A stretch of 63,657 bases of DNA from Clostridiaceae bacterium BRH_c20a (GTDB taxonomy: Bacteria > Bacillota > Peptococcia > Peptococcales > BICA1-8), in NCBI GenBank assembly GCA_000961765.1, contig LADT01000082.1, positions 1-63,657 of the forward strand, in the 5' to 3' direction. The notes under the pieces are model-generated. The model made no database searches, was not told the origin of the DNA, and saw only the letters and a program-made list of their open reading frames with translations. Position numbers and translations under genes: made by a program. The first letter of the stretch is position 1. Each line of letters opens with the position of its first letter. This document shows positions 2,995 through 61,130 of this stretch, one piece after another.

Positions 2995-3843
2995 ATGGGT
3001 TTAGTTACATTAAAAGAAATTTTAAAAATACACGATGGTGCGGTTGGTGCATTTAGCACGTATGATCAATATTCTGCCCAGGGTATTATAGAGGGGGCAG
3101 AAGAAGCGGGTCTGCCTGTAATCTTAATGATTGGTTCTGGACCTTTGAATAAACCTGGAAATGACTATGTTGGACAAATTATGGTGCAACTGGCAAAAGA
3201 AGCTAGTGTTCCTGTATGTGTCTTCCTTGACCATTCAAAGGATTATAAAACCTGTTTAAAAGCCATTAAACTTGGTTTTAGTGCAGTTATGATTGACGGT
3301 TCCCATTTATCTTTAGAGGAAAATATAGCTATTACCAATAAAGTAACAGAAGCTGCCCAGGCTTTAGGTGTTTCCGTTGAAGCTGAACTAGGTGCCTTAG
3401 CTGGAATCGAGGACGGAGAAGAAGTAAAACAAGCTAAAATGACCGACCCGACCCATGTTGAAGAATTTTTGGGCAAAACAGATGTAGATGGACTAGCGGT
3501 ATCTATAGGTAATGCTCATGGTCTCTACAAAGGTGAACCAAAACTTGATTTTGAGCGACTACAAACTATTGCTGGCATATCCCAAGATGTACCTCTAATT
3601 CTCCATGGAGGAACTGGGCTGACCCTGGCTCAATTTGCAAAAGGTGTTGAGTTGGGCATTAAAAAGATAAATATTGGTACTGAAGTTAAGAAAACATACA
3701 TTGAGGCATTTATAAACACCCATGAAAAGAATGTATCCTCTTATGATATGGTTGAAATTCCCCAAGCATGTAAAAAAGCAGTGGCCAAAATGGTCAAAGA
3801 AAACTTAGAGTTCTTTGCTAACGGGTGGAGAAAGCTGATTTAG
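2995..3843 (+). CDS. Class II ketose-bisphosphate aldolase (cluster-specific paralog)
   Basis: Zinc-dependent aldolase cleaving a ketose bisphosphate to DHAP plus an aldehyde. The 282 residues carry the class II zinc ligands: His in VFLDHSKDY (~81), Glu in VEAELG (~133), His in GNAHGLYKG (~177) and His in LILHGGTGL (~204). Also seen are MIDGSH and KINIGTEVK. DHS replaces the DHG or DHH seen in the housekeeping fba at 45023 or in GatY/KbaY, so a substrate other than fructose-1,6-bisphosphate is possible. GGAGG lies 8 bases before the ATG. It has its own consensus promoter and operator and is probably induced with the phosphofructokinase downstream. Confidence 0.88.
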   Translation: MGLVTLKEILKIHDGAVGAFSTYDQYSAQGIIEGAEEAGLPVILMIGSGPLNKPGNDYVGQIMVQLAKEASVPVCVFLDHSKDYKTCLKAIKLGFSAVMIDGSHLSLEENIAITNKVTEAAQALGVSVEAELGALAGIEDGEEVKQAKMTDPTHVEEFLGKTDVDGLAVSIGNAHGLYKGEPKLDFERLQTIAGISQDVPLILHGGTGLTLAQFAKGVELGIKKINIGTEVKKTYIEAFINTHEKNVSSYDMVEIPQACKKAVAKMVKENLEFFANGWRKLI

Positions 3844-3844
3844 A

Positions 3845-4175
3845 ATTGGGCGTGACGTCTATGGGGTAAAATATTGAGTCAGCATGACGTCTATAAGGAT
3901 GCATTTGGGGTCGGTGTGACGTCTTAGTGGTTAATATTAGGGTCGGCATGACGTCAATGAGGATGCACTTTGGGTTGGTTTGACGACTTAAATAGTTTGT
4001 GTTGAAGGGTGTCCTTATCAAAAGAGTATAAAATACCGACGGAATAGTATGGCCCATGAGACGTAATACCGCCATTCAGATTAGCACATAAGTCGTAATG
4101 CAGACCTAAAATAATACCCGAAAGTTGTCATGCCGACATGCAGTAAAGCCATTTAGTTGTCATGCCGACGCAATA
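3845..4175. repeat. Mirrored repeat array C, keyword GTCGGCATGACGTC, exact 32-bp period
   Basis: TGACGTC-type words fall at 3853, 3885, 3917, 3949 and 3981 (TGACGAC), each exactly 32 bases from the next. The fuller unit is GGGTCGGCATGACGTC plus about 16 bases. From about 4035 the inverse word (GCCGAC and variants) appears with the same period, ending near 4040, 4073, 4105, 4137 and 4169. The left half is thus five direct units and the right half five inverted units around a centre near 4010-4030. It fills the whole aldolase to phosphofructokinase gap. A related array lies at 31045-31372. Confidence 0.9.
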
Positions 4176-4200
4176 ATTATCCATAAAGGAAGTGAAACAC

Positions 4201-5418
4201 ATGCCCAAACTTAAAGGTAATCTTCTAATCGGTCAATCCGGTGGGCCTACCCCTGTTATTAATGCCAGCCTAGCCGGAGTACTGAGTGAAGCTAAAAAAA
4301 TACCGGAGATTGAAAAAATATATGGTATGAAAAACGGCATTGAAGGTGCACTAAATAAAGAGGTATATGATTTAACCCAAGAGCCCGAAGACTTAGTAAA
4401 AAAGCTTTTATATACACCTGCTTCAGTTTTAGGCAGCTGCCGTCATAAGTTAAGCAAAGATGAAGAATATGAACAATTATTAGACCTGTTTAAGGCTAAC
4501 AATATTAGATATTTTGTCTATATTGGCGGTAATGACAGCATGGATACATGCCATAAAATATCTAAACTAGCTCAAGAAAGAAACTATGATATGCAGGTAG
4601 TTGGCGTTCCTAAGACAATAGACAATGACCTGCCTATTACTGATCACTGTCCTGGTTTTGGAAGTGCCGCCAGGTTTGTTGCCCTAAGTACTATAGAATC
4701 AGGTCGTGACCTGGAGGCTATGAAGACCTTTGATGATGTGGCCATTTTTGAAATTATGGGTCGTCATGCCGGCTGGCTTACTGCTGCTAGTGTTTTAGGT
4801 AAAAGATGTGATGAGGATGCCCCCCATTTAGTTTACCTGCCGGAGCGTAACTTTGATGAAGTACAGTTTCTTGCGGACGTTAAAGCTGTGTACGATAAAC
4901 TCGGTTATGTTTATGTAGCTTTAAGTGAAGGTGTTAGAGATAAAGATGGGGAATTTATTGGGGCTAAGGATGCAGCAACAGATGCCTTTGGGCATAAAGC
5001 TATTTCTTTAAGTGATGGACCTGGTGCATATCTGGCTAAGTTAATTAAGGAAAAACTAGGCATTAAAACCCGGGTTAATAGACCGGGGACAATCCAAAGG
5101 GCAATGGCTGCGTTAGCTTCCAAAACAGATGTGGACGAGGCTTTTCGGGCAGGTCAAGCTGCTGTGGAATACTTTTCACAAGGTATTACTGATGTTATGG
5201 TTACTTTAGATAGAATACCTGGTGCAGAATATAAAATTGAAATCGGCAAAGCACCTTTGGAGAAGGTAGCTAATGTCGAAAACTTTATACCGGATCATTT
5301 TATAAACGAAGCCGGGAACTTTGTAACTAAGGAATTTTTTGATTATTGTTTACCATTGATAGGCGACCCGATCCCTGACTATGCCAGATTAGTTGGGATG
5401 TCAATAAAACTTAAGTAG
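4201..5418 (+). CDS. pfp: Phosphofructokinase, probably PPi-dependent
   Basis: PfkA-superfamily kinase phosphorylating fructose 6-phosphate or a related ketose phosphate. ATP-type PFK has GGDGS and PGTIDND. Here the motifs are IGGNDSMDT and GVPKTIDND: Asp replaces the Gly next to the nucleotide and Lys replaces the second Gly, the combination known for pyrophosphate-dependent enzymes. Also seen are IMGRHAGWL and LSEGVRD. The length is 405 residues from ATG 4201, 7 bases after AAAGGAAG. A GTG at 4192 is in frame but overlaps that site. The aldolase and PFK together form the lower half of a ketose pathway. The PPi assignment and exact sugar are inference. Confidence 0.8.
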   Translation: MPKLKGNLLIGQSGGPTPVINASLAGVLSEAKKIPEIEKIYGMKNGIEGALNKEVYDLTQEPEDLVKKLLYTPASVLGSCRHKLSKDEEYEQLLDLFKANNIRYFVYIGGNDSMDTCHKISKLAQERNYDMQVVGVPKTIDNDLPITDHCPGFGSAARFVALSTIESGRDLEAMKTFDDVAIFEIMGRHAGWLTAASVLGKRCDEDAPHLVYLPERNFDEVQFLADVKAVYDKLGYVYVALSEGVRDKDGEFIGAKDAATDAFGHKAISLSDGPGAYLAKLIKEKLGIKTRVNRPGTIQRAMAALASKTDVDEAFRAGQAAVEYFSQGITDVMVTLDRIPGAEYKIEIGKAPLEKVANVENFIPDHFINEAGNFVTKEFFDYCLPLIGDPIPDYARLVGMSIKLK

Positions 5419-5448
5419 ATCTAAAGTTAAGTTAAAGTTAATTTTATA

Positions 5449-5509
5449 TTGACACACGTTTCGGGTTATACCATAATAAAGTTGCAATTAAGTAATATTA
5501 CAATATTAT
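5449..5509 (+). promoter_or_regulatory. ABC-transporter promoter with GntR-type operator
   Basis: TTGACA (5449-5454), 17 bases and CATAAT (5472-5477) form a strong promoter. The core palindrome TAATATTACAATATTA lies at 5493-5508, 15 bases after the -10 box, identical in 16 bases to the core of the aldolase operator. The leader from here to 5717 is AT-rich with no further structure that I could support. Confidence 0.8.
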
Positions 5510-5717
5510 ATTGAGGCCTTTATGCTATTAGTTATTTTACCAAATTTTACACTATTTTATTCAGATTATTAGAAATATTCAACAAGAAATTCTTTCCTTT
5601 TTCAATCTTTTAAAAGAAAGTCTGTAAAAGCATACATTATACATTTTTGAGGCATTTTAATCAACAACAAAATATTGTATCTTTAGCTGTAATAATGCTT
5701 GAGAGGGGTGTCAGGTT

Positions 5718-6833
5718 GTGGCGGGTGTAAAAATAGAAAATGTTTATAAGTATTATAATAAGAATACTATTGCAGTTTCCGATTTCTCTTTAGAAATTAA
5801 GGATGGGGAGTTTTTAGTTCTTGTTGGACCATCGGGGTGTGGTAAAAGTACTACCCTAAGAATGGTAGCGGGACTTGAAGAAGTAACAAAAGGCAATATT
5901 TATATTGGAGAAAAGAATGTTACTAATATGGAACCTAAAGATAGGGATATAGCTATGGTTTTCCAGGATTATGCTTTATATCCCCATATGTCTGTTTATG
6001 AAAATATGGCTTTTGGTTTGAAATTAAGGAAATATCCCAAAGATGAAATAATACAAAGAGTGGAAAATGCTGCAGAAATATTAGGTATTACCCATTTATT
6101 TGAGAGACAGCCTCGACAGCTTTCGGGGGGACAAAGGCAAAGGGTAGCTTTAGGACGAGCCATCGTACGGAAACCGCAAGTCTTTTTAATGGATGAGCCC
6201 CTCAGTAATTTAGACGCTAAACTAAGGGTGCAAATGCGGGCCGAGTTAGTAAAACTACAGCGCAAACTTGCTACAACAACAATCTATGTAACTCATGATC
6301 AAACAGAAGCCATGACAATGGGTGATAGAATAGTTATTATGAAAGATGGATTTATGCAACAGGCGGGTACACCTGAAGAGATATATCATAACCCTATAAA
6401 TTTATTTGTTGCTGATTTTATAGGATCTCCTAGCATGAATTTTGTTGAAGGTTCGTTAGTTACTGAAGACGACCAGGTTGAATTTGAAACAGATGGATTT
6501 AAAATTGGCTTTAACAGTCTTATAAAACTAGGTCAAATTAATGAAAAAGAGGTAATCCTTGGCTTTAGACCAGAGAATATTAGTTTGGATACTAAGAATA
6601 AAGGCAGTTGGTCGAAGCCTATTAATTGTCAAATCGAACTGATTGAAGACTTGGGTGCAGAAAAAATATTATTCATGAAGGCAGAAAATCAGGAATTTCA
6701 AGTTAAGCTTTTTGATAGTAACTTTGAGGGCAAAGTTGGACAATCACTTCAAGTATACTTGGATTTGAGTCGTATTCATATTTTTAGTAAAGACAGCGGT
6801 CAAAAAATCTGGAATGCGGGGGGTGGTAGATAG
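5718..6833 (+). CDS. Sugar ABC transporter ATPase, MsmK/UgpC/MalK type
   Basis: Cytoplasmic ATPase energising a CUT1 carbohydrate importer. Walker A is GPSGCGKSTT (~38-47), the signature LSGGQRQRVALGRAI (~134), Walker B VFLMDEPLSNLDAKLR (~155) and the switch His in YVTHDQTEAM. Residues ~240-371 form the MalK-like TOBE regulatory domain. It starts at GTG 5718 after GAGAGGGG. At 371 residues it is full length. It is the first gene of the operator-controlled transport operon, with its binding protein and two permeases immediately after. Confidence 0.93.
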   Translation: MAGVKIENVYKYYNKNTIAVSDFSLEIKDGEFLVLVGPSGCGKSTTLRMVAGLEEVTKGNIYIGEKNVTNMEPKDRDIAMVFQDYALYPHMSVYENMAFGLKLRKYPKDEIIQRVENAAEILGITHLFERQPRQLSGGQRQRVALGRAIVRKPQVFLMDEPLSNLDAKLRVQMRAELVKLQRKLATTTIYVTHDQTEAMTMGDRIVIMKDGFMQQAGTPEEIYHNPINLFVADFIGSPSMNFVEGSLVTEDDQVEFETDGFKIGFNSLIKLGQINEKEVILGFRPENISLDTKNKGSWSKPINCQIELIEDLGAEKILFMKAENQEFQVKLFDSNFEGKVGQSLQVYLDLSRIHIFSKDSGQKIWNAGGGR

Positions 6834-6911
6834 AAAATTAATGTAGTTTGATTTTAGTATATATAAGTAATAATTTAATGTTTCGTAAAAAACTAAAAGG
6901 AGTGGGGATTC

Positions 6912-8186
6912 TTGAAAAAGTTTAGATTTTTTTCTGCTTTATTAGCTGTATTACTAGTGTTAAGCCTAGTTGTTGTGGGTTGTGCGCCGAAAGAAGAACC
7001 TAAAGGCGACACAGCAAAAGATGAAAAAGTTACTTTGCGTTTTGCCCATTGGCGTGGTGAAGACAGAGATGCCTTTAATGAAATTGCTAAAAAGTTTACA
7101 GCAGAAAATCCTAACATTACAATAGAACAAGATATATCAAATTCACAACAGTATCAAACTAAAATACAGGCTGAAGTACGGGCCCAGGGTGGGCCAGATA
7201 TTTTCACTGCCATGCCTGGTGCGGTTTTTGCGGGATTATTAACTACTCAGGTATTTTACGAACTTAATGGTGAAGACTTTATAAGCCGTGTCCCTGATCA
7301 ATTATTGCTGCCAGGTCAGGATGGAGACAAACAATATGCAATTCCTTACCAATTAGTATTTAATATTCCTGTTTTTAACAAGGCTATCCTAGAAGAAATC
7401 GGCTATACAGAAGATAAACTTCCGAAAGACTGGGCTGGGTTTTTAGAAATGGCCGAAAAAATAAAGGCAAAAGGTATTACACCAATTATTTTTGACAGTG
7501 AAATTGGGCCAGGTCAGTTTATAAATCCAATGTTAATGAACAATATGCCCGAAGATGATACTTTAAGTAAGGTAGAAACTGGAGAAACAAAGCTTACTGA
7601 TGAGTGGTTTGTAAAAACCTTAGAACAATTCAAGGAACTAAATGATAAAGGATATTTCCAAAAAGATGTTTTAGGAACGAAGAAAGCCGGTGCAGCCGCC
7701 TTATTTGCCCAAGGAAAAGGTGCCTTGCTTGCTCAAGGCTCTTACATGATGGCAACTAATAAAGAAGCTAATCCGGATTTAAAACAGGGTTTATATGCTC
7801 CAATCACTGTACCAGCGGATAAAATGAAATATGAAGGTATCCACACAGCAACATTTATGATTGGTCTTAATAAAAATTCTAAAAATCTTGAGGCAGCTAA
7901 AAAGTTTATGGAGTTCCTGTTTAGACCAGAAATTGCTGCAGATTACGCGAAAGCAACAGGTCAAATGTTGACCATAAAAGATGTTAAATATGAAAGTGAA
8001 GAATTAGCCGCTCAAACAACCTGGTTAGATAAGAAAACATTATTCCAACCACGGTATACTTTAAAAATTACTGAAGTATCAAAAGCTACCTTAGATGCAG
8101 TTACTGATGTAATTGGCGGAATGTCACCGGAAGATGCTGCGCAGAAAGCGCAAGCTGAAGTAGAACGAGCATTAAAGAATAAATAG
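6912..8186 (+). CDS. Extracellular sugar-binding lipoprotein of the ABC importer
   Basis: Family 1 extracellular solute-binding protein. It starts at TTG 6912 after AGGAGTGGGG. Residues 1-23 are a lipoprotein signal ending in a lipobox-like VVVGC, so Cys24 would be lipidated and the protein anchored outside the membrane. The mature part shows the family pattern (VTLRFAHWRGEDR, then MPGAVFAGLL, DKQYAIPYQLVFN and KNLEAAKKFMEFLF). The length is 424 residues. Its ligand sets the specificity of the cluster but cannot be read from sequence. Confidence 0.92.
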   Translation: MKKFRFFSALLAVLLVLSLVVVGCAPKEEPKGDTAKDEKVTLRFAHWRGEDRDAFNEIAKKFTAENPNITIEQDISNSQQYQTKIQAEVRAQGGPDIFTAMPGAVFAGLLTTQVFYELNGEDFISRVPDQLLLPGQDGDKQYAIPYQLVFNIPVFNKAILEEIGYTEDKLPKDWAGFLEMAEKIKAKGITPIIFDSEIGPGQFINPMLMNNMPEDDTLSKVETGETKLTDEWFVKTLEQFKELNDKGYFQKDVLGTKKAGAAALFAQGKGALLAQGSYMMATNKEANPDLKQGLYAPITVPADKMKYEGIHTATFMIGLNKNSKNLEAAKKFMEFLFRPEIAADYAKATGQMLTIKDVKYESEELAAQTTWLDKKTLFQPRYTLKITEVSKATLDAVTDVIGGMSPEDAAQKAQAEVERALKNK

Positions 8187-8207
8187 ACAAAAGTCAGTTG
8201 ATAGGAT

Positions 8208-8230
8208 AGAGAGAGGGTAGTCCTCTCTCT
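8208..8230 (+). promoter_or_regulatory. Intercistronic stem-loop between binding protein and permease
   Basis: AGAGAGAGG (8208-8216) pairs perfectly with CCTCTCTCT (8222-8230) around five bases. There is no T tract, so it is more likely an RNA-stabilising or partial attenuation hairpin. Such hairpins commonly let the binding protein be made in excess of the permeases. Confidence 0.6.
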
Positions 8231-8260
8231 TCTCCGCATAATAGGCAAGGAGGGAAAATT

Positions 8261-9136
8261 ATGAAAAAATACAAAGCTTTATCCTTTTTCATCCTCCCGG
8301 GCATAATTTTTTATATTCTGTTTTTTATTTTTCCTACAATTTCTGCCCTAGGGTTAAGTTTTACCGACTGGAATGGGTTGTCCCCTGATTATAATTTTGT
8401 TGGATTTAAAAATTATAAGCTTTTATTAACAGATGACCCTATTTTTATAAAATCTGTTAGTAATAACCTCAAGTATATGTTTTCAGTGGTAGTTTTTCAG
8501 ACTCTGATATCATTGGTTTTTGCCATCTTGCTTGCCAAGAATACAAAACTAAATGTCTTTTACCGGGCAGTATTGTTTTTACCAACAATAATATCATCTG
8601 TATCTGTGGCATTTGTCTGGATATTTGTCTATGAACCCAGCATTGGTTCGTTAAATGCCGTCCTATCTGCCTTAGGTTTAGATTTTCTAATTAAATCATG
8701 GCTAGGTGATAAAAATATTGCTATATACAGCTTGGCCTTTGTTCAGGTTTGGGCTCATGCCGGACAGGTAATGATTATCTTTATTGCCGGATTACATGCA
8801 ATTCCTAAGTCTTTATATGAAGTAGCTCGGATTGAAGGAGCTACTAAATGGCAAACTTTTCGTAATGTAACTTGGCCATTACTTGCGCCATCAGCTACTA
8901 TTGTAATAGCTTACACTACCCTACAATCTTTTAAAGCTTTTGATTTAATTCTAGCAACAACAGATGGTGGTCCATCTTATGCAACTGAAATTTTATCTCT
9001 ATTCCTGTATCATGAAGCTTTTAATAACTTTAAATTTGGTTATTCCTCGGCTATTGCTGTAGTTTTCATGCTAATAATTGCGGTAATTACTATTGTGCAA
9101 TTCAGACTGCTCAAATCTAATAAGGTTAATTACTAG
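8261..9136 (+). CDS. Sugar ABC transporter permease, MalF/UgpA type
   Basis: Inner-membrane subunit of the CUT1 importer. The 291 residues contain about six hydrophobic segments, the first at residues 8-30. The EAA loop that docks on the ATPase is EVARIEGATKWQTFRNVTWP near residue 187. AAGGAGGG precedes the ATG. It is co-transcribed with the binding protein upstream and the second permease downstream. Confidence 0.92.
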   Translation: MKKYKALSFFILPGIIFYILFFIFPTISALGLSFTDWNGLSPDYNFVGFKNYKLLLTDDPIFIKSVSNNLKYMFSVVVFQTLISLVFAILLAKNTKLNVFYRAVLFLPTIISSVSVAFVWIFVYEPSIGSLNAVLSALGLDFLIKSWLGDKNIAIYSLAFVQVWAHAGQVMIIFIAGLHAIPKSLYEVARIEGATKWQTFRNVTWPLLAPSATIVIAYTTLQSFKAFDLILATTDGGPSYATEILSLFLYHEAFNNFKFGYSSAIAVVFMLIIAVITIVQFRLLKSNKVNY

Positions 9137-21469: not shown

Positions 21470-21734
21470 AACCCCCGCCCCTAAAAAAAATAGGGACGAG
21501 AGGCTTATCTCGCGGTACCACCCTAGTTGGTCTTATACAGACCCCCTCAGTAAAACTCACTCTCCATAACGGTGGAGACCGGTTCTGCTTACTCAACCTC
21601 GATTGGTTTTTCAGAAGAACACTCTAGAGTGGCTTCATTGGATTGCTGCATCGGATTTTCACCATCACCGATTCTCTGAGGTCAGCAGGTGACCAATTAC
21701 TCTTCTCTTTCACAGTGTTTATACTTATGTAATT
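21470..21734 (-). ncRNA. T-box riboswitch leader, specifier GCC (alanine)
   Basis: On the minus strand the leader contains the T-box core AGGGTGGTACCGCG (21511-21524), preceded by a Stem I beginning AGAGAAGAGTAATTGG. Its specifier loop reads CCAATGAAGCCACTC, where GCC after GAA (21631-21633) is the specifier codon. The bulge UGGU fits a tRNA with discriminator A, as tRNA-Ala has. In the alternative terminator, TAGGG and GCGAGA pair with TCTCG and CCCTA, followed by eight T residues (ending near 21483). Uncharged tRNA-Ala would allow read-through into lrp and the aminotransferase gene. Confidence 0.9.
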
Positions 21735-26589: not shown

Positions 26590-27200
26590 TTGGGATAATT
26601 GATTATGACTCCGGCAATATTTTTAGTTTAGCGGCCGCTTTTAACCGTTTAGACGCCAATCACAGGCTTGTTACAGCACCCACAGAAATCAATAACTGTA
26701 CAGCACTGGTATTACCCGGGGTGGGAGCCTTCGGTGATGCAATAAATAACCTAAAGGCCAAGGGCTTAAATGAGGCAATCCTCCACTGGGTAAATGCCGG
26801 AAAACCATTATTGGGGATCTGCTTAGGAATGCAGTTATTATTTGAAAAAAGTGAAGAACATGGAATTTATCAGGGGCTAGGGATTCTGCCTGGAACTATT
26901 AGGCGGATTACGGGCCAGGTTAAAGTTCCCCACATGGGTTGGAACAAACTTCACATTATTAGTAACCATAACCTTCTTCAAAATATCTCTGATGGATATG
27001 TGTATTTTGTTCATTCCTATTACGCTGCTGAAGCTTCGGAAGTTGTCTTGGCCTCTACCTTTTATGGTGAAGAAATACCAGCTGTTGTAGGTAAAAATAA
27101 TGTGCTGGGAATGCAGTTTCACCCAGAAAAAAGCGGCCCCGTGGGAATGACGCTGCTAAAGAATTGGGTCGAATTGATAGAGGCTTCAGATAAAAGGTAA
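26586..27200 (+). CDS. hisH: Imidazole glycerol phosphate synthase glutaminase subunit HisH
   Basis: Class I glutamine amidotransferase giving ammonia to HisF. 204 residues, with [12 protein letters not shown] at the start, oxyanion region [10 protein letters not shown], nucleophile Cys in [13 protein letters not shown] (~80) and the His-Glu pair in [10 protein letters not shown] (~178). It overlaps hisG by 4 bases. Its partner hisF lies downstream beyond a repeat-filled 445-base gap and hisA. Confidence 0.95.
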
Positions 27201-27202
27201 AA

Positions 27203-27500
27203 TATTGGGATGCATCTGCTTATCTGCTTTTTTGCATGATGTATCCGATGAATGGCAGTCTTCTGGGATGCATCTACTTTAATGTTAGACTGCATGATCC
27301 ATCAATGAAGGTCAGTTTATTTTGAAGCATCCTATTCAAGATGCAGGAAGCAGGAAGCATGAGTCAAGATAAGGGCTATATATTAGTTCTTGCTTCTTAC
27401 CTCCTGTTTCTTGCCTCCTGTGCTGCAGATGCCTCAGGTGATATTCACATGCATAGGATGCATCCTATGATGTTCACCCGTAAGCAGATGTCAAACAAAT
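27203..27500. repeat. Mirrored repeat array B, keyword GATGCATC, with inserted minisatellite
   Basis: Left half: GATGCATC (27209), GATGTATC (27238), GATGCATC (27267), GATCCATC (27296) and GAAGCATC (27324), spaced 28-29 bases. Right half (about 27415-27500): GCAGATGCC, CATAGGATGCATCC and GCAGATGTC in inverted context with TTCACCCGTAAG. The centre (27340-27415) holds a GCAGGAAGCAGGAAGC minisatellite and its complement-like partner GCTTCTTACCTCCTG. It separates hisH from hisA. It is the same family as the 1073-1212 array. Confidence 0.8.
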
Positions 27501-29742: not shown

Positions 29743-31032
29743 ATGAATATCTATCAATGGAATAATATGGATATAAATGCCAAGGCTAGCTTATTAAGAA
29801 GGGCTGAAAAGGATATCAGTGAGCAGATGGAAGTAGCTTTAGGGATCATAAATGAGGTAAAAAAAGGCGGAGATGAGGCTGTCTGCCGCTTTACTGAGAA
29901 GTTTGACGGTGCTCACCTAACACCTCAATCCTTAAGGGTTACAGAAGAAGAGATAGATGAGGGATATGAAAGGATAGGAGATGCATTTAAAGAAACCCTC
30001 TGGTTTGCTGCAAAAAATATCAGAACCTTTCATACTCGTCAGATGCCGGAGCCCCTTTGGTTTACTGAGACTGTACCTGGTGTAATGGTAGGTGAACAAA
30101 CAAACCCTATTCCCGATGTTTGTATCTATGTTCCTAGAGGTAAGGGCAGTTTTCCCTCAGTATTATTAATGCTTGCAATACCTGCTATAGTGGCAAAAGT
30201 ACCTCGTATAGTTGTTGTTACACCTCCTAACTCTCAAGGAAAGCTTGATGATAGTGTTTTAGCGGCGGCCAAAGTAGCCGGCGTTAGTGAAATATATAAA
30301 GCTGGGGGTGTCCAGGCAGTAGCTGCTGTAGCGTATGGTACTCAAACAATTCCCCGGTGCAGTAAAATTATTGGTCCGGGCAATTCCTATGTTACTGCTG
30401 CTAAAAGAATCTTAAACGGTGTCTTGGACGTGGGTCCTCCGGCAGGTCCTAGTGAAGCAATCATTCTAGCTGATGAAACAGCAGATGCCAAAAAGGCAGC
30501 CTTGGACTTAATGATAGAAGCAGAACATGGCCCTGATTCTGCTAGTTTGCTAGTTACCCATGTTGCTGAGTTGGCAGAGCAAGTAAAGAAAATTATTGAG
30601 AAGCAATTACCAAAGCTTTCTGAGAAGAGGAGAAGCTTTGTTAACACTGTTTTTAACAATTACGGGGGAATAATTTTAACACAAAGCTTAGAGGAGTCCA
30701 TAGATGTTGTTAATCAATACGGGCCCGAGCACATGGAATTAATGGTTAAGGACCCCTGGGGGATTTTACCCAGAATTAAAAATGCCGGAGAAATTCTGCT
30801 GGGACATAATGCTCCCATAACCTTAGCAAATTTCCTATTGGGGCCAAATGCTATTTTACCTACGGGAGGTTCCGCTAAAACCTATTCCAGCGTTTCAGTT
30901 TTTGACTTTATAAAACGTTCCTCAGTAGGTTATGTCACAGAAGAAGGCTATCAAAAGGTAAAAGACATGGCCGCCCTCTTCGCCCGAGAAGAAGGCTTCG
31001 AAACCCACGCCCTGGCGATCGAAGATCGCTGA
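29743..31032 (+). CDS. hisD: Histidinol dehydrogenase HisD, with altered zinc ligands
   Basis: Belongs to the HisD family (429 residues; IIGPGNSYVTAAKRIL, EAEHGPDSASLLVT and YGPEHMELMV visible). In canonical HisD the zinc ligands are Gln, His, Asp and His, with a further conserved His. Here QAEHG is EAEHG (Gln to Glu), the Asp of GDYxSG is Asn in LANFLLG, and the His of NHVLPT is Ala in NAILPT. The C-terminal His (FETHAL) and the Glu-His of GPEH remain. It may be a divergent functional HisD or a HisD-like dehydrogenase for another alcohol; its place in the his operon favours the former. Confidence 0.85.
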   Translation: MNIYQWNNMDINAKASLLRRAEKDISEQMEVALGIINEVKKGGDEAVCRFTEKFDGAHLTPQSLRVTEEEIDEGYERIGDAFKETLWFAAKNIRTFHTRQMPEPLWFTETVPGVMVGEQTNPIPDVCIYVPRGKGSFPSVLLMLAIPAIVAKVPRIVVVTPPNSQGKLDDSVLAAAKVAGVSEIYKAGGVQAVAAVAYGTQTIPRCSKIIGPGNSYVTAAKRILNGVLDVGPPAGPSEAIILADETADAKKAALDLMIEAEHGPDSASLLVTHVAELAEQVKKIIEKQLPKLSEKRRSFVNTVFNNYGGIILTQSLEESIDVVNQYGPEHMELMVKDPWGILPRIKNAGEILLGHNAPITLANFLLGPNAILPTGGSAKTYSSVSVFDFIKRSSVGYVTEEGYQKVKDMAALFAREEGFETHALAIEDR

Positions 31033-31044
31033 GGCTAATGGGTG

Positions 31045-31372
31045 AAGATAATCAGTCGGCATTATTACTTTAGGGGCAGTATTTAGGTCAGCATTACGGC
31101 TTACAAGATTAATTTTTGGGTCGGCGTGACGGCTAAGAAGAGCTTTTTTAGGTCGGCTTGACGTCTTCTACGCTAGATTTTGGGTCCGCATGACGTCTAT
31201 TAGGTAAACACTTTAGGTCGGCATGATAACTTTATAGACAATTTATTTCGTCAGCATTTTTAATGCCGACGTGCAGTTTAACCCACGAGACGTAATGCCG
31301 TCCGAATATGAATCCCAATAGCCGTCATGCCGACTTCATGATTATCCCAGTAGACGTCATGCCAAAGTCAGT
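31045..31372. repeat. Mirrored repeat array D, keyword GTCGGCATGACG
   Basis: GTCGGC-type words at 31055, 31087, 31120, 31152, 31184, 31217 and 31250 (spacing 32-33) form seven direct units. GCCGAC-type inverse words at 31265, 31297, 31329 and 31361 (spacing 32) form four inverted units. It uses the same keyword as 3845-4175. It fills the hisD to hisB gap, followed by a CTGAGCAACCGAGCCCTGG piece. Confidence 0.9.
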
Positions 31373-36457: not shown

Positions 36458-36499
36458 ATTCGTTTCCTCCCATACTAAAATGAAAATGGCTAAAAGCTA

Positions 36500-36563
36500 T
36501 CGACCATAAACCATAAACCATAGACCATAAACCATAGACCATAAACCATAGACCATAAACCAT
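36500..36563. repeat. CCATAGA/CCATAAA minisatellite
   Basis: Seven to eight tandem copies of ACCATAA/ACCATAG (7-bp unit, alternating as a 14-mer). Shorter relatives at 43676-43715 and 60699-60735. The rest of the 36564-36863 gap is AT-rich, with TTGACA at 36753 as a possible argS -35 box but no convincing -10, and an ACTAGCCACTAGTTACTAG piece at 36820. Confidence 0.8.
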
Positions 36564-36863
36564 TTACTAATAGCTGCTTTTTTAGATTTCCCCCATCTTT
36601 AGAAATTATGATAATATAAACTTATAAATAAAATATAACTTTGCGGTACAGAGGGTAATTATATGTACAATAGTGGCTGACGGTGACTTGACTAATTTAG
36701 GATCAGTATTTTTGGGAAACCTATTAGGAAAGATTGAACTTTTTAAAATATGTTGACATGACAACAGCTAAATATTAATCTAAATAATATTATTGGTTTT
36801 ACTGTTAACGTATTCTATCCACTAGCCACTAGTTACTAGCACTTATTGAAACGAGGTATTATT

Positions 36864-38540: not shown

Positions 38541-38566
38541 TAAATAGCCAAAGGCTATTTACTACA

Positions 38567-38757
38567 TCAGGTTAAGGTTGAGGTTAAGGCTGAGGAGGTT
38601 TTAAATAATTTTCTTAACCTTAACCTAACGAACGGAGTGAGCGGAACCTTAACCTTAGTAATGCACTAGCATTACTACTTAGCCTTAACCTAGCGAACGG
38701 AGTGAGCGAAACCTTAACCTTAGTGATGCGTTAGCATTACTACTTAACCTCAACCTA
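38567..38757. repeat. TTAACCT/GCGAAA repeat cluster
   Basis: Repeated CTTAACCTAACGAACGG / AGTGAGCGAAACCTTAACC units with intervening GTAATGCACTAGCATTAC and GTGATGCGTTAGCATTAC palindromes. The same family occurs at 32150, 33190, 42208, 45887, 46650, 47815, 48000 and 63055. Confidence 0.85.
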
Positions 38758-38809
38758 AAGTAGAGTATACTTCAAAACAACAGATGTGTTTTGAAGTATA
38801 CTCTACTTT
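38757..38809. repeat. 23-bp perfect stem-loop between argS and pyrG
   Basis: Arms 38757-38779 and 38787-38809 are perfectly complementary over 23 bp around a 7-base loop. There is no T tract, but it is strong enough to act as a processing site or terminator. Confidence 0.85.
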
Positions 38810-40579: not shown

Positions 40580-40915
40580 AAGACTATGGGTGAAAGTATA
40601 ATCTGAATGTCTCGTGCTCAGTGACCTGTGACCAGTGCTCAGTAAGAACTTAATAAAATGCTGATAAAAATACACAAACATGAGATTGCTTCGCTCCACT
40701 CGCAATGACGGGACAAATATTGTTTCGCTTTTTGGTATAACTGGATAAGTAGTATGGATATCTCACAATGACGATCAGAGACAGGAATCGATAAAATTTG
40801 TCATTGCGAAGGAGGTACGACTGAAGCAATCCCATCTTTTTCTGTAGCACTGTAGCACTGTCATGCAGAGTTGCCTATTAGCCGCCACACTGACCTAAAA
40901 GCTTAACCCAATAGT
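40580..40915. repeat. Mixed REP-like repeats between pyrG and femX
   Basis: In order: GTGACCTGTGACCAGTGCTCAG (GTGACCAGTGC family), GAGATTGCTTCGCTCCACTCGCAATGAC and CATTGCGAAGGAGGTACGAC/TGAAGCAATC (GCAATC family, 40683-40830), CTGTAGCACTGTAGCACTG (40842-40861), then an ACCCAATAGTAAAAG scaffold-like word just before the femX ribosome site. No gene is seen. Confidence 0.75.
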
Positions 40916-40931: not shown

Positions 40932-42008
40932 TTGCAAGCCCGACTGATAACCGAAAATGAAAGAGAGTATTATAACAGTTTCATTGCTTCCATACCTAAA
41001 GGACACATTCTTCAGTCATATGAATGGGGCGAGATAAAGGCTAAAACCGGATGGAAGCCTTTGCGTTTGCTTATTGAGGAAAACGGAAAGCCAATTGCAG
41101 CTATTTCTGTGCTAAAACGAATAATCCCGGGACTAAAGAAGGCAATTTTTTATGCACCCAGAGGTCCTGTTTTTGATATAGAAAATAAAGAGGTTTTTGG
41201 TTTTTTACTAGCAGAAGTAGAGAAGCTGGCTAAGGACCATAATGCCATTTTCTTAAAGATTGACCCTGATATTCCGGCAGATAATAAAGAGTTTAAGCAA
41301 CTACTTTTAACAAAGGGCTTTCGTTCAGCCGAAAAAGGTGATAGGTTTGAAGGGGTACAGCCCAAATACGTATTTCGCTTAGACATAACCCCTGATGAGG
41401 AAACCCTTTTGGCAAACATGCATACTAAAACCAGATATAATATCCGTTTGGCTGAGCGGAAGGGTGTAACAATAAATACCGAATGCCCTAAAAGTGATTT
41501 AAAAGATTTTTATCATATATTACAAGAAACCTGTGAGCGAGATAATTTCCTCGTTCGTTCTTATGGATATTTCGAAGATATGTGGGATTATTTGGTGGAG
41601 CGAGGTTATGCCAAACTTTTTATGGCCGAGCATGAAGGCCGCTATATAGCAGGGACTTTGGCGTTCATCTTTGGAGAAAAGGCTTGGTACATTTATGGTG
41701 CATCAAGCAATAGTTATCGTAATGTTATGCCAAACTACTTAATACAATGGACTATGATTCAGTGGGCTAAGGAAAAGGGCTGTACCTTGTATGATTTCAG
41801 AGGGGTTCCGGGAAATCTGACAGAGGACAACCCTCTTTATGGGCTGTTTAAATTTAAAAAAGGTTTTAACGGTGTATATTCCGAATTTATAGGTGAGTTC
41901 GATCTAGTATATTCGCCCTTTTATTATTGGTTATGGCATACTGCCGAACCAGTATATCAAAAGGGAATCAGGAAGCTTATTGCTCTGAAGAAGAGATTAC
42001 GCGCTTGA
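40932..42008 (+). CDS. FemAB/FemX-type peptidoglycan bridge aminoacyltransferase
   Basis: Transfers amino acids from aminoacyl-tRNA to the lipid II stem peptide, making interpeptide branches. 358 residues from TTG 40932 (AGAGGTGAT directly upstream). Two GNAT-like halves are apparent: KGHILQSYEWGEIKAKTGW (~22), then ANMHTKTRYNIRLAERKGV (~163) and GTLAFIFGEKAWYIYGASS (~240) with YDFRGVPGN. No long coiled-coil arm as in staphylococcal FemA. It lies next to an alanine racemase homolog, consistent with cell-wall peptide work. The amino acid added is unknown. The stop codon falls in the first unit of array E. Confidence 0.85.
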   Translation: MQARLITENEREYYNSFIASIPKGHILQSYEWGEIKAKTGWKPLRLLIEENGKPIAAISVLKRIIPGLKKAIFYAPRGPVFDIENKEVFGFLLAEVEKLAKDHNAIFLKIDPDIPADNKEFKQLLLTKGFRSAEKGDRFEGVQPKYVFRLDITPDEETLLANMHTKTRYNIRLAERKGVTINTECPKSDLKDFYHILQETCERDNFLVRSYGYFEDMWDYLVERGYAKLFMAEHEGRYIAGTLAFIFGEKAWYIYGASSNSYRNVMPNYLIQWTMIQWAKEKGCTLYDFRGVPGNLTEDNPLYGLFKFKKGFNGVYSEFIGEFDLVYSPFYYWLWHTAEPVYQKGIRKLIALKKRLRA

Positions 42009-42420
42009 CAATTGCTCGTAGGTTAAGCTTACGCGTCTGATATACTCACAGGTTAAAATTTTGCGTCTGACATTTCTTTGAGGTTAGTTTTATTGTCTGA
42101 CAATGCTTTGGGGACAACCTCATGCGTCTGACATTACTCATGGGACTAGCTTTTGCGTCTGACACCAACTTTGCGGTAGTTTTATGGGTCTGAAACTTGG
42201 TTCTAAAAAACCTTAACCTTAACCTAGCGAAATGAAATGTAGCGAAACCTCAACCCTGCATTTCTGAATACTGGTCACTGGGCGCTGGGCACGATTTTTT
42301 ATCAGACGCAAAATGTTCACCCCGATGTACTGTCAGACGCGTAATATTCGCCCAGAAGTAAATCAGACGCCATATCTTCACCCAGAAGTTAATATCAGAC
42401 AAGCAATCTTCACCCGGAAG
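42001..42420. repeat. Mirrored repeat array E, keyword GCGTCTGACA
   Basis: Direct half: GTCTGA-type words at 42003 (GCTTGA), 42035, 42065, 42095, 42126, 42157 and 42188, spacing 30-32. Inverted half: TCAGAC at 42302, 42333, 42363 and 42395, spacing 30-32, each followed by a TTCACCCAGAAGTAAAT-like scaffold. The centre (42205-42295) is occupied by a TTAACCT/GCGAAA repeat and a CACTGGGCGCTGGGCACG piece. The last scaffold copy, CACCCGGAAGG, supplies the ribosome site of alr. Confidence 0.9.
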
Positions 42421-42431
42421 GATGTTTCAAA

Positions 42432-43607
42432 TTGTACAAATGGGTTGAAATTGATTTAGATGCCATAGAAAGCAATTTTATAAAGATAAAAGAAAAAGTG
42501 GGCCCAGAGACTAAAGTTTTGGGCGTTGTCAAAGCAGACGCTTATGGACATGGAATAATTGAAGTAAGTCGAGCGCTGGCCCGTAGTGGAGTAGACTATT
42601 TAGGTGTGACAGAAATTGCTGAGGGGATAAAGCTGCGGGAAGCTGGAATTAAGACACCTATACTGGTTTTTGGACCTTTTTTGCCGGAAGATGCTTTTTA
42701 TTTTCAAGAGTTTGTCCTCACTGCAACCTTATCCGACTTGACTACTATTAGAAATATAGTTACCCAAGGGTTTAGTATTGCAGTCCATCTGAAAATAGAA
42801 ACAGGCTTTGGTCGGACAGGTTTTAAGTATAACGAATTGGCTGAGCTTGTTCAAATGGTAAAAAATAATGATAATATCATGGTTCAAGGTATTTATTCTC
42901 ACCTGGCAACCAGTATGTATTCCGATAGCTCCTTTGCCTACAGACAGTTTGAGAAATTTATTGAAGCAGTAAAGTTCCTCGAAAAGGAAGATTTAAAGAT
43001 ACCAATTAAACATATATGTAATAGTGCTGCTTTGGTCAAGTTCCCCCAAATGCATCTGGATATGGTAAGAGCAGGCACCATATTGTATGGACAAGAGGTT
43101 GCAGGAAACCAGAGCCTTCAGGGTGGGCTAAAAAACGCCTGGAGTTTAAAAGGGCAGATTACCTATATTAATGACCTGCCCAAAGGGCATTCAATAGGAT
43201 ATGAGCGTGCCCACTTTTTAAAATCCGCTGCCAAAACTGCAGTTGTTCCCATTGGATTTCATCACGGTTTTTCTGTAGAGCCAATCCCACGTCCCAAAGG
43301 TTTGTTGGATTTAATTAAGGTGTTAGCTAAGGTTCTATTGCGCTTTATTGACCACCCACGAGTGAAAACGTATGTACGGATTAGAGATAAGGAAGTTCCC
43401 GTTATTGGGAAGGTTGGAATGCAAATGACCATTTTAGATGTAACATCTATTCCGGATTTAGTGATAGGAGAGACGGTGGAGATGCCTGGCAGGAGGACTA
43501 ATATTAGTCCTGAGTTACCTAAAGTGTATTTGCGAGATGGCAAACCTTTTAAAATAATAAAAGATAGTGAAAAAAATGAAGAATTTCTCAATAACCTTTC
43601 AGGTTAA
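42432..43607 (+). CDS. alr: Alanine racemase-family protein
   Basis: PLP-dependent fold-type III racemase giving D-alanine. 391 residues from TTG 42432 (GGAAGG 8 bases before). The PLP Lys is in VLGVVKADAYGHG (~33), RAGTILYGQ and the Tyr of SIGYERAHF are present, and the C-terminal domain has GKVGMQMTILDVT where typical Alr has GRVCMDQ. An insert at ~285-310 (GLLDLIKVLAKVLLRFIDHP) is unusual. Could be Alr or a racemase for another amino acid. Neighbouring femX suggests a peptidoglycan role. Confidence 0.82.
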   Translation: MYKWVEIDLDAIESNFIKIKEKVGPETKVLGVVKADAYGHGIIEVSRALARSGVDYLGVTEIAEGIKLREAGIKTPILVFGPFLPEDAFYFQEFVLTATLSDLTTIRNIVTQGFSIAVHLKIETGFGRTGFKYNELAELVQMVKNNDNIMVQGIYSHLATSMYSDSSFAYRQFEKFIEAVKFLEKEDLKIPIKHICNSAALVKFPQMHLDMVRAGTILYGQEVAGNQSLQGGLKNAWSLKGQITYINDLPKGHSIGYERAHFLKSAAKTAVVPIGFHHGFSVEPIPRPKGLLDLIKVLAKVLLRFIDHPRVKTYVRIRDKEVPVIGKVGMQMTILDVTSIPDLVIGETVEMPGRRTNISPELPKVYLRDGKPFKIIKDSEKNEEFLNNLSG

Positions 43608-46000: not shown

Positions 46001-46648
46001 ATGAAACTCTTTTTAGATACCGCAAATGTGGAAGAAATTCGTCAGGCAGCTGAATTAGGTGTTATTTGTGGTGTAACAACCAATCCCACCTTAATCGCTA
46101 GAGAGGGGCGCAACTTTCAGGAGGTCATTAAAGAGATTGCCCAAATCATTGATGGTCCAATAAGTGCTGAGGTGGTAGGAATAACAAAGGAAGAAATGGT
46201 TTTAGAAGCTAAAGAATTGGCAAAAATACATAAAAATATAATAATTAAAATTCCTCTTATTCCGGAAGGCTTAAAGGCCATTAAAGTATTATCTTCCCTG
46301 GGGATAAAAACTAACGCAACTTTAATCTTTAGCGTCAACCAAGCTATTTTAGCCGCTAATGCAGGAGCAACATATGTTAGCCCTTTCATAGGCAGACTTG
46401 ATGATATCAGTCATGATGGGATGGAACTTGTGTCAGATATTTGCCAAGTTTTTGTAAATTATAATTATGAGACGGAAATAATAGCTGCAAGTGTGCGTCA
46501 TCCTATCCATGTTGCTCAGAGTGCTAAGCTGGGGGCCCATATAGCTACTGTTCCGTATAAACTCATATTACAGATGTGCAAACATCCTCTGACGGATTTA
46601 GGCCTAGAAAATTTCCTTAAAGACTGGGAAAAGGTTAAAAACAAATAG
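46001..46648 (+). CDS. tal: Transaldolase / fructose-6-phosphate aldolase family (YwjH/TalC)
   Basis: Small-form transaldolase, 215 residues, of the pentose phosphate pathway. [14 protein letters not shown] start, [14 protein letters not shown] (~30) and the Schiff-base Lys in [14 protein letters not shown] (~83), [10 protein letters not shown] (~127). AAGGAGG precedes the ATG. Small-form enzymes can be transaldolases or fructose-6-phosphate aldolases. Synteny with Bacillus ywjH favours transaldolase. Confidence 0.92.
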
Positions 46649-46649
46649 T

Positions 46650-46825
46650 AATGTTAACGCATTACTAAGGTTAAGTAGCAATGCTAACGCATTACTAAGG
46701 TTAAGGTTTCGCTCACTCTGTTCGCTAGGTTAAGGTTAAGGAAACAGTCTAAAAAACTTACTAAATCTTAACCTCAGCCTCAACCTTAATTATCAATGAG
46801 CCTCAGCCTTAACCTTAGTTATTGA
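46650..46825. repeat. TTAAGG repeat cluster between tal and glpX
   Basis: Direct copies of TAATGTTAACGCATTACTAAGG and GCAATGCTAACGCATTACTAAGG, then GTTTCGCTCACTCTGTTCGC/TAGGTTAAGG and an inverted CTTAACCTCAGCCTCAACC half. It fills the whole gap. Confidence 0.85.
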
Positions 46826-50938: not shown

Positions 50939-52180
50939 ATGTTTCATTTTGTTTATGCTGATGAAGAAGGAAATGCATTTGACCATGAAAATTTATATGT
51001 ATTGGGCAGACTTGGCAATTCTTTTGTTGAGCCAACTGAGGAAGAACTTATTCCTTTGCCTCAAGGTGCTGGGCTGACTATAATCCCAAATCGAACTGCA
51101 GTGGTAATGGACAGACAGGGTGAATTTAAAAAGTACCGAGGCCCTGGCTTTGTGGTGGGAGCCCTTTTGCCTCAGGGTTATACCCGAACCCTATTGCCCG
51201 CTTTTATAAATGAGCAAAGGGCACAACAGTTACCTTTATTTGGCTATACTGCAGTAGGTTATAAAAATGGTAAGCTTTATGCTGCTGCCCGAGCTACCGA
51301 TATTGATGATAAGTGGAATCCCAAGCATTTTAATACTGTTCAGCTAGCGGAAAAGGTTCATAGCCTAAGGGAAAAGCTTCCTCAAAACCGGATTATCAAG
51401 CAGTTAAGCTATTGTGCATTAGAATATAGCTGTTTTACAGCTCAAAACATTTTTTATGGGAGATGGGAGGGAGGCATCCCTGTCTCTCCTGCCTGCAATG
51501 CTCGCTGCCTAGGTTGTATTTCCCTTCAGCCTGCTGAATGTTGCCCTTCACCCCAAAGCCGAATTGATTTCCTGCCAAATGTAGAAGAAGTAGTGCAATT
51601 AGGTCTGCATCACCTAGGTAATGAACGGGAACCTATTATCAGTTTTGGGCAGGGCTGTGAAGGTGAACCAAGTATCCAGGCTGATTTGATAGCGGAAGCT
51701 ATTATTCAGATTAGGAATAAGACTAATTGCGGCACAATCAATATGAATACCAATGGCGGCAATACTTTTGGGATACAAAAGGTCTGTTTGGCAGGTATAG
51801 ATTCTTTAAGAGTAAGCTTAAATAGTGCAAAGCCCGGCGCTTATACTGCTTATTATCAGCCGCAAAACTATACTCTGGAAAATGTAAAAGAATCTTTGCG
51901 AACTGCAAGTGCCCAAGGAGTATATACTTATCTAAACCTATTATTTTTTCCTGGGATAAATGATTGTGAAGATGAGGTAGAGGCACTAATTCAATTAATT
52001 ATTGACACCGATGTCAAGGCGGTCCAGCTCAGGAACTTGAATATTGATCCTGATGTCCTCCTTGATAAAATCCCCTCTCCAAAAGGAGAACCCTTGGGTG
52101 TCCCCGCCTTTTTAGAGGTCCTATCCCAGGAACTGCCCACAGTGGAAGTGGGGAATTATACGAAACCAATAAATAAATAA
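50939..52180 (+). CDS. Radical SAM protein of unknown substrate
   Basis: 413 residues from ATG 50939 (CGGAGGAG 6 bases before). The [4Fe-4S]-SAM motif is CNARCLGC, Cys186, Cys190 and Cys193, unusual in lying after a ~185-residue N-terminal region (GLTIIPNRTAVVMDRQGEF and others) with no recognised domain. FGQGCEGEPSIQAD and NMNTNGG follow the usual SAM-barrel pattern. Further Cys residues in PAECCPSPQSR could bind a second cluster. Substrate unknown. Confidence 0.85.
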   Translation: MFHFVYADEEGNAFDHENLYVLGRLGNSFVEPTEEELIPLPQGAGLTIIPNRTAVVMDRQGEFKKYRGPGFVVGALLPQGYTRTLLPAFINEQRAQQLPLFGYTAVGYKNGKLYAAARATDIDDKWNPKHFNTVQLAEKVHSLREKLPQNRIIKQLSYCALEYSCFTAQNIFYGRWEGGIPVSPACNARCLGCISLQPAECCPSPQSRIDFLPNVEEVVQLGLHHLGNEREPIISFGQGCEGEPSIQADLIAEAIIQIRNKTNCGTINMNTNGGNTFGIQKVCLAGIDSLRVSLNSAKPGAYTAYYQPQNYTLENVKESLRTASAQGVYTYLNLLFFPGINDCEDEVEALIQLIIDTDVKAVQLRNLNIDPDVLLDKIPSPKGEPLGVPAFLEVLSQELPTVEVGNYTKPINK

Positions 52181-52385
52181 GTGTCATCATGCATGTTTAG
52201 CTTCCATGACGTGTCACGATGAATGGCAATTTACTAGGATGTGTCACCGTGTCATCGATTTTTAAATGCCTTTTCGGTGGCACGATCGCACGGACATGTG
52301 GAATTACTAATAAGCCATGACACAGACCTACTGTATAGCCCCTGAGCTTACACACTAACGTGCTGATTATCCCTTGAGCGAAAAT
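52181..52385. repeat. Mirrored repeat array H, keyword GTGTCAC
   Basis: GTGTCA words at 52181, 52211 and 52241 (spacing 30) precede a GGTGGCACGATCGCACGG centre. Inverse-sense CATGACAC (52316), CTTACACAC (~52348) and scaffold words AGCCCCTGAG and GATTATCCCTTGAG follow at about 31-base spacing. The stretch GATGAATGGCAATTTACTAGG is shared almost exactly with array B, although the keyword differs. Confidence 0.75.
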
Positions 52386-52461
52386 CCTTGACTCATACAA
52401 ACAAAGAATATATAATGTAATAAGTGTTTAAGTGATACTGATGGAAAGAGGTGAACCCGAA

Positions 52462-60964: not shown

Positions 60965-61080
60965 CTTTTATCAGCCTGTCGATATTCACCCAGAAGTAAA
61001 TGTCAGACGCCCAATATTAACCCATAAGCAGTTGTCAGACGCGTAATGTTTACCCAATAGAAATGTCAGCCCCGTGAATG
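60965..61080. repeat. Inverted half-array G, keyword TCAGACGC
   Basis: TCAGCC (60971), TCAGAC (61003), TCAGAC (61035) and TCAGCC (61066) at 31-32-base spacing, with scaffold copies GATATTCACCCAGAAGTAAA, AATATTAACCCATAAGCAG and AATGTTTACCCAATAG. Only the inverse orientation of the array E keyword is present. Confidence 0.85.
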
Positions 61081-61130
61081 TTACCTGTAAGTAAAGTAAC
61101 CACTCACTAAAACAAAGGTCGGTGAATTAA

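Follow-up and report, generated by a model that had tools for sequence, protein, structure and literature searches.

Between an aldolase and a phosphofructokinase gene of Clostridiaceae bacterium BRH_c20a lies a gap filled by regularly spaced repeats that run in one direction and then in the other. What kind of element is this array, and from what does it derive? We addressed this question by analysing the array within a contiguous stretch of 63,657 nucleotides (hereafter, the window), together with its counterparts in related genomes.

Architecture of the array

In the array (3846–4185), five 32-bp units run in direct orientation and five more in the inverse one; it is flanked upstream by the gene for a class II fructose-bisphosphate aldolase (2995–3843, plus strand), whose stop codon lies 3 bp ahead of it, and downstream by the phosphofructokinase gene (4192–5418, plus strand; probable start at 4201). 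Its left (5′) arm (3846–4005, plus strand) is formed by direct units starting at 3846, 3878, 3910, 3942 and 3974, each composed of the core GTCGGCATGACGKC and an 18-bp spacer of the scaffold type TTAnGGGTTAAnTTTTGG, for which a version ending in CTGCAT occurs as an alternative. In the right (3′) arm (4036–4185, minus strand) the units are inverted; their cores end at 4041 (a degenerate one), 4073, 4105, 4137 and 4169, and an additional outer half unit reaches about 4185. The centre (4006–4035) is short and holds neither an ORF nor a remnant of a gene for the 23S rRNA intervening-sequence protein (IVP). By inspection, the core is a quasi-palindrome, GnCGnCATGnCGnC, palindromic at its fixed positions. 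Using GTCGGCATGACGTC with up to two mismatches, we found 12 matches in the window, whereas 100 shuffles predicted 0.10; six of them make up a second array at 31055–31366, and one is a stray match at 4760.

A preliminary description had placed TGACGTC-type words exactly 32 bp apart at five positions. Four of these (3853, 3885, 3917 and 3949) are exact, while the word at 3981 is the variant TGACGAC; similarly, inverse GCCGAC-type words do end at the five right-arm positions given above, with exact GCCGAC in the last two only. Of the readings it offered, that of a foldback element with tandem-repeat ends is right. The description was also right to set the array apart from CRISPR, with which it shares regularly spaced repeats: CRISPR repeats are identical, run one way and enclose unrelated spacers, whereas here the orientation flips, the spacers have a common consensus, the repeats are degenerate and blocks comprise 2–7 units only. 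We therefore ruled out a CRISPR array. An Rfam search returned no known RNA family matching at this position; elsewhere in the window, a T-box leader (RF00230) is located at 21489–21722 on the minus strand.

Several further arrays occupy gaps in the window, none of them with an IVP remnant. The second array, between hisD and hisB (31032–31366), to which the preliminary description of the array at 3845–4175 does not refer, has the same keyword and comprises six direct and three or four inverted units. A related foldback array with the keyword GATGYATC lies between hisH and hisA (27199–27474), and a sister-family array with the keyword GCGTCTGACA and a period of 30–31 spans 42009–42420, with a half array of inverted GCGTCTGACA units at 60965–61095 (minus strand). 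GATGYATC and the type at 52181–52385 (GTGTCAyGATGAATG / GACGTGTC, read by eye) thus represent two further keyword types, the latter being the fourth. Other dispersed palindromes (TGTCATTGCGA... and TGTCATCCTGAG...) were observed at about 40680–40830 of the window and about 2000–2120 of locus L046, in the same gaps or nested in array centres.

Folding of the array and of the second array gave z-scores of -2.65 and -3.87, respectively, against shuffled sequences. The sense strand folded better than the antisense strand in 29 of 35 cases; the same bias was present in control genes (139 of 189), IVP arms showed none, and the arms of an array paired with each other no better than swapped arms. Given the bias in the controls and the lack of covariation within arrays, selection at the RNA level is unsupported; we do not count the sense-strand bias as evidence and attribute it to composition.

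Dispersal, site preference and turnover

The preliminary description had suggested a search with a profile of the unit in the genome and its relatives. This search showed that the arrays are dispersed: among loci fetched from five related genomes, which belong to a small family of uncultured Clostridia, we catalogued at least 92 arrays with two of the keywords (54 with the first and 38 with the second), a lower bound for the family. A 46-nt unit model of the first keyword type matched 41 times in G000, 113 in G001, 56 in G002 and 87 in G004, with no matches in G003 or in the 41 other genomes searched from this class. One unit in an alignment that served solely for building a search model carries a one-base error. 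The sister keyword GCGTCTGACA, which shares the scaffold with the first, yielded 48 and 107 blastn matches in G003 and G000, respectively. Nearly all arrays are direct then inverted, so that the keywords face the centre, or else single-armed. The exact 32-bp phasing reported for the array at 3845–4175 holds there only; over all arrays, units are mostly spaced by 32 or 33 bp (first keyword) and 31 or 32 bp (second keyword). In G000, first-keyword arrays were found on only six of 92 contigs (C6, C9, C13, C17, C32 and C72), which may reflect regional clustering or a mixed bin, and the sister keyword is found on many contigs. G001 carries a structured repeat of about 250 bp (ACTTGAGCGGCTATA...GATTATTCC) in two copies (L147, about 3180–3450, and L062, about 8110–8330). 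A viral origin was rejected, as no array was found in IMG/VR and the nine pattern matches of the sister keyword there resemble coding or simple repeats, several of the pentapeptide type. Our literature search on foldback or intergenic repeats in Clostridia retrieved nothing relevant.

The arrays show a marked site preference. For 84 arrays both neighbouring genes are defined; 78 of these arrays lie in codirectional gaps, 6 in convergent gaps and none in divergent gaps, although 10.7% of all gaps at the same loci are divergent (p = 8e-5). The median distance between the upstream stop codon and the start of an array is 33 bp, and the array itself often supplies that codon. This distribution bears on cooperative binding by a protein, the other reading in the preliminary description, with the arrays as sites for a regulator or a chromosome-organising protein, as the palindromic core, the three-turn helical phasing and the many copies per genome might suggest. 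The array of a regulator would be expected in many divergent gaps, where promoters lie; that none of the 84 arrays is found in such a gap counts against this function, as do positions that are unconserved between sister genomes and several unrelated keywords within one genome; we consider a binding array highly improbable.

The same niche is that of REP sequences, which reside between unidirectional or convergent genes, adjoin stop codons and sometimes supply the stop (PMC3733652). REP/BIME-like extragenic repeats, moved by a RAYT (Y1 transposase) and serving as transcribed operon spacers or stabilisers, would account for the many intergenic copies downstream of stop codons in codirectional gaps, and G000 has 19 Y1_Tnp matches. 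Unlike REPs, whose units are palindromes of 20–40 bp that form hairpins, single array units are not hairpins, their minimum free energy being no lower than that of shuffles (-4.73 versus -4.86; -2.88 versus -3.68 for the sister keyword), and they are arranged in convergent blocks, direct then inverted, rather than alternating. Nor does the number of Y1_Tnp matches follow the arrays, with one in G001 against 113 unit matches and none in G002 against 56. On the non-hairpin units and these counts we rejected identity with REP/RAYT systems, and regard a REP-like origin and role as improbable overall.

Sister genomes with contigs collinear with the window (G003:C27 and G004:C184) revealed that the arrays differ in presence and type at orthologous sites. 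The hisH–hisA gap, with a GATGYATC array in the window, measures 0 bp in G003 and 16–25 bp in G004. The hisD–hisB gap carries the first keyword in the window and an array with the sister keyword in G003, and measures 60–66 bp in G004, where a mini hairpin (GCTTTTTGG..CCAAAAGGC) is retained. The gap at 42008–42432 contains the sister keyword in both the window and G003 and GATGYATC in G004; that at 52180–52432 contains the fourth keyword type in the window, the first keyword in G004 and a remnant in G003. The aldolase–phosphofructokinase gap itself holds GATGYATC in G004. Since sister gaps are empty or filled with other keywords, the arrays come and go, and the same gaps are reused by different array types. 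These comparisons bear out the dispersal and presence/absence differences anticipated in the preliminary description, and the array does not recur in the orthologous gaps as a conserved, unique stretch.

The G004 mini hairpin, together with an internal block duplication in L046 (1762–2218), might point instead to growth of the word arrays in place, without mobility, where small hairpins downstream of stop codons prompt slippage and template switching. One keyword with one scaffold at 30 catalogued places in G000 is not expected from slippage at separate sites, and we judge in-place growth very unlikely.

Association of array arms with IVP genes

The decisive lead to the identity of the element came from a sister copy in G004 (contig C150; L055, 3782–4502), in which first-keyword arms (+++++ ... 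----) directly enclose an ORF of the IVP (S23) family (PF05635, 23S_rRNA_IVP; E = 1.2e-37), with no further word arms between them; the preliminary description had missed this link. The encoded protein is related to the solved proteins 2gsc and 2rld, and the folding energy of the entire element is -252 kcal/mol (z = -9.5). First-keyword arms flank an IVP gene on both sides at this single place, and adjoin two more, one on G004:C150 (upstream) and one on G001:C116 (downstream); most IVP genes have arms of short words. On G004:C150, less than 5 kb (4002–8790) accommodates four IVP genes, one with an internal stop, interleaved with array arms. PF05635 genes number 7 in G000, 3 in G001, 3 in G002 and 7 in G004, and are present in 31 of 199 genomes of the phylum; G003 has many sister-keyword arrays and no IVP gene.

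That the only recognisable gene inside the arms is an IVP gene weighs against a foldback MITE of a DNA transposase, which would bind the palindromic keyword cooperatively at a spacing of three helical turns, the different keywords corresponding to transposase specificities. The palindromic core, the 31–33 bp period, the several keywords on one scaffold and the presence/absence at orthologous sites would fit such an element. Foldback (FB) elements and MITEs that end in tandem repeats, best known from eukaryotes, resemble the arrays in their inverted arms of tandem units and lack of coding capacity. The arrays differ in that we saw no transposase, no autonomous transposase-bearing copy and, in array ends aligned by eye, no consistent target-site duplication. 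We consider a transposase-driven MITE unlikely.

Across Firmicutes, IVP genes tend to have inverted arms of degenerate tandem words on either side, mostly with a period of 7; CTAGTAA, GGAGAGT and GAGGTTA are examples. We compared the inverted complementarity of their 130-bp flanks with that of 776 control ORFs: it exceeded the 95th percentile of the controls for 6 of 16 IVP genes in the family (p = 1.5e-5) and 17 of 28 across the phylum (p = 3.8e-9), a contrast that is if anything understated, because the G004 element itself is in the control set. Two IVP elements lie inside 23S rRNA (L290 and L302), one between genes reading as atpG and atpD, and three, with arms of heptamer words, interrupt the RNase P RNA genes of three genomes (L266, 1317–2083; L275, 1311–2083; L297, 1229–2003). 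Arrays of degenerate 6–8 bp words resembling IVP arms (GACCATAAACCATA, GGTTAAGGTTGAGG and GGGCTCAGGGACCA) were also observed in the window (36495–36570, 38560–38780 and 46640–46790) and in L049 of the same genome (7253–7560).

Identity and significance of the element

The closest parallel is the intervening sequence (IVS) of 23S rRNA with an S23/IVP ORF, found in Coxiella, Leptospira and Salmonella. In Coxiella, the IVS has inverted complementary termini, and its S23 ORF is preceded by tandem heptamers in the 5′ arm, the number of which varies among strains; RNase III excises the IVS from the RNA in Coxiella and other bacteria (PMC4990558). Inverted complementary arms, tandem direct repeats within an arm, sporadic presence and, in one sister copy, the IVP ORF are shared by the arrays described here. 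They differ in being located between protein genes, in their high copy number, in lacking an ORF in most copies and in units of 31–33 bp compared with about 7 bp in the IVS.

On balance, we favour, by a little over even chances, the interpretation of the array as a MITE-like derivative, devoid of an ORF, of an IVS/IVP-type selfish foldback element, one with unusually long word units and spreading between operon genes; it probably acts like IVS/IVP elements and derives from them. A complete element would comprise inverted arms of degenerate tandem words around a gene whose product is IVP/S23 (PF05635), a four-helix-bundle protein, and would insert where DNA is transcribed and untranslated, namely into 23S rRNA, RNase P RNA or right behind the stop codons of operon genes. 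The window copy would have lost the IVP gene, leaving its two arms nearly touching; the converse, insertion of an IVP gene into a pre-existing array, might also explain the G004 copy. In favour of this interpretation are the enclosed IVP ORF in G004, the inverted tandem flanks of IVP genes, the Coxiella parallel, the turnover at orthologous sites and the niche in operon gaps that arrays and IVP elements share. Against it weigh the single two-sided enclosure by first-keyword arms, the short-word arms of most IVP genes, the many arrays of G003 despite its lack of an IVP gene, the missing IVP remnant in the window arrays, arms that pair no better with each other than with swapped ones, and the fact that no target-site duplication was seen by eye. 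By analogy with the rRNA IVS of other bacteria, the transcript of the window copy is expected to fold into an extended, interrupted hairpin, a potential substrate of RNase III, and the element may be moved by IVP or by another enzyme. The IVP gene is missing from the window copy, and of the sister copies whose arms carry this keyword one has it; we therefore treat the window copy as a derivative rather than a full member; lying outside rRNA and without the gene, it is not filed as a standard IVS/IVP element.

Although IVSs have been known in rRNA for more than 25 years, their origin and mobility are unexplained (PMC4990558). The same protein and the same inverted word arms are present within RNase P RNA and between operon genes, along with gene-less derivatives at high copy number, which suggests a general mobile element. 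Cyanobacterial STRR heptamer repeats, which we compared with the arrays by description only, offer a lead, since they too are degenerate tandem words. A 1997 title by Vioque reportedly places an STRR inside RNase P RNA, the location of three IVP elements here. It is conceivable, at somewhat less than even chances, that IVP genes mark a large class of foldback mobile elements in bacteria that has so far received little description. Such elements would assemble degenerate tandem words into arms, target operon gaps as well as structured RNA genes, and give rise to derivatives without the gene; many orphan word-repeat families, including the STRRs, may stem from them. An IVS-type reading of the arrays would further account for intergenic repeats of a kind that fragments genome assemblies.
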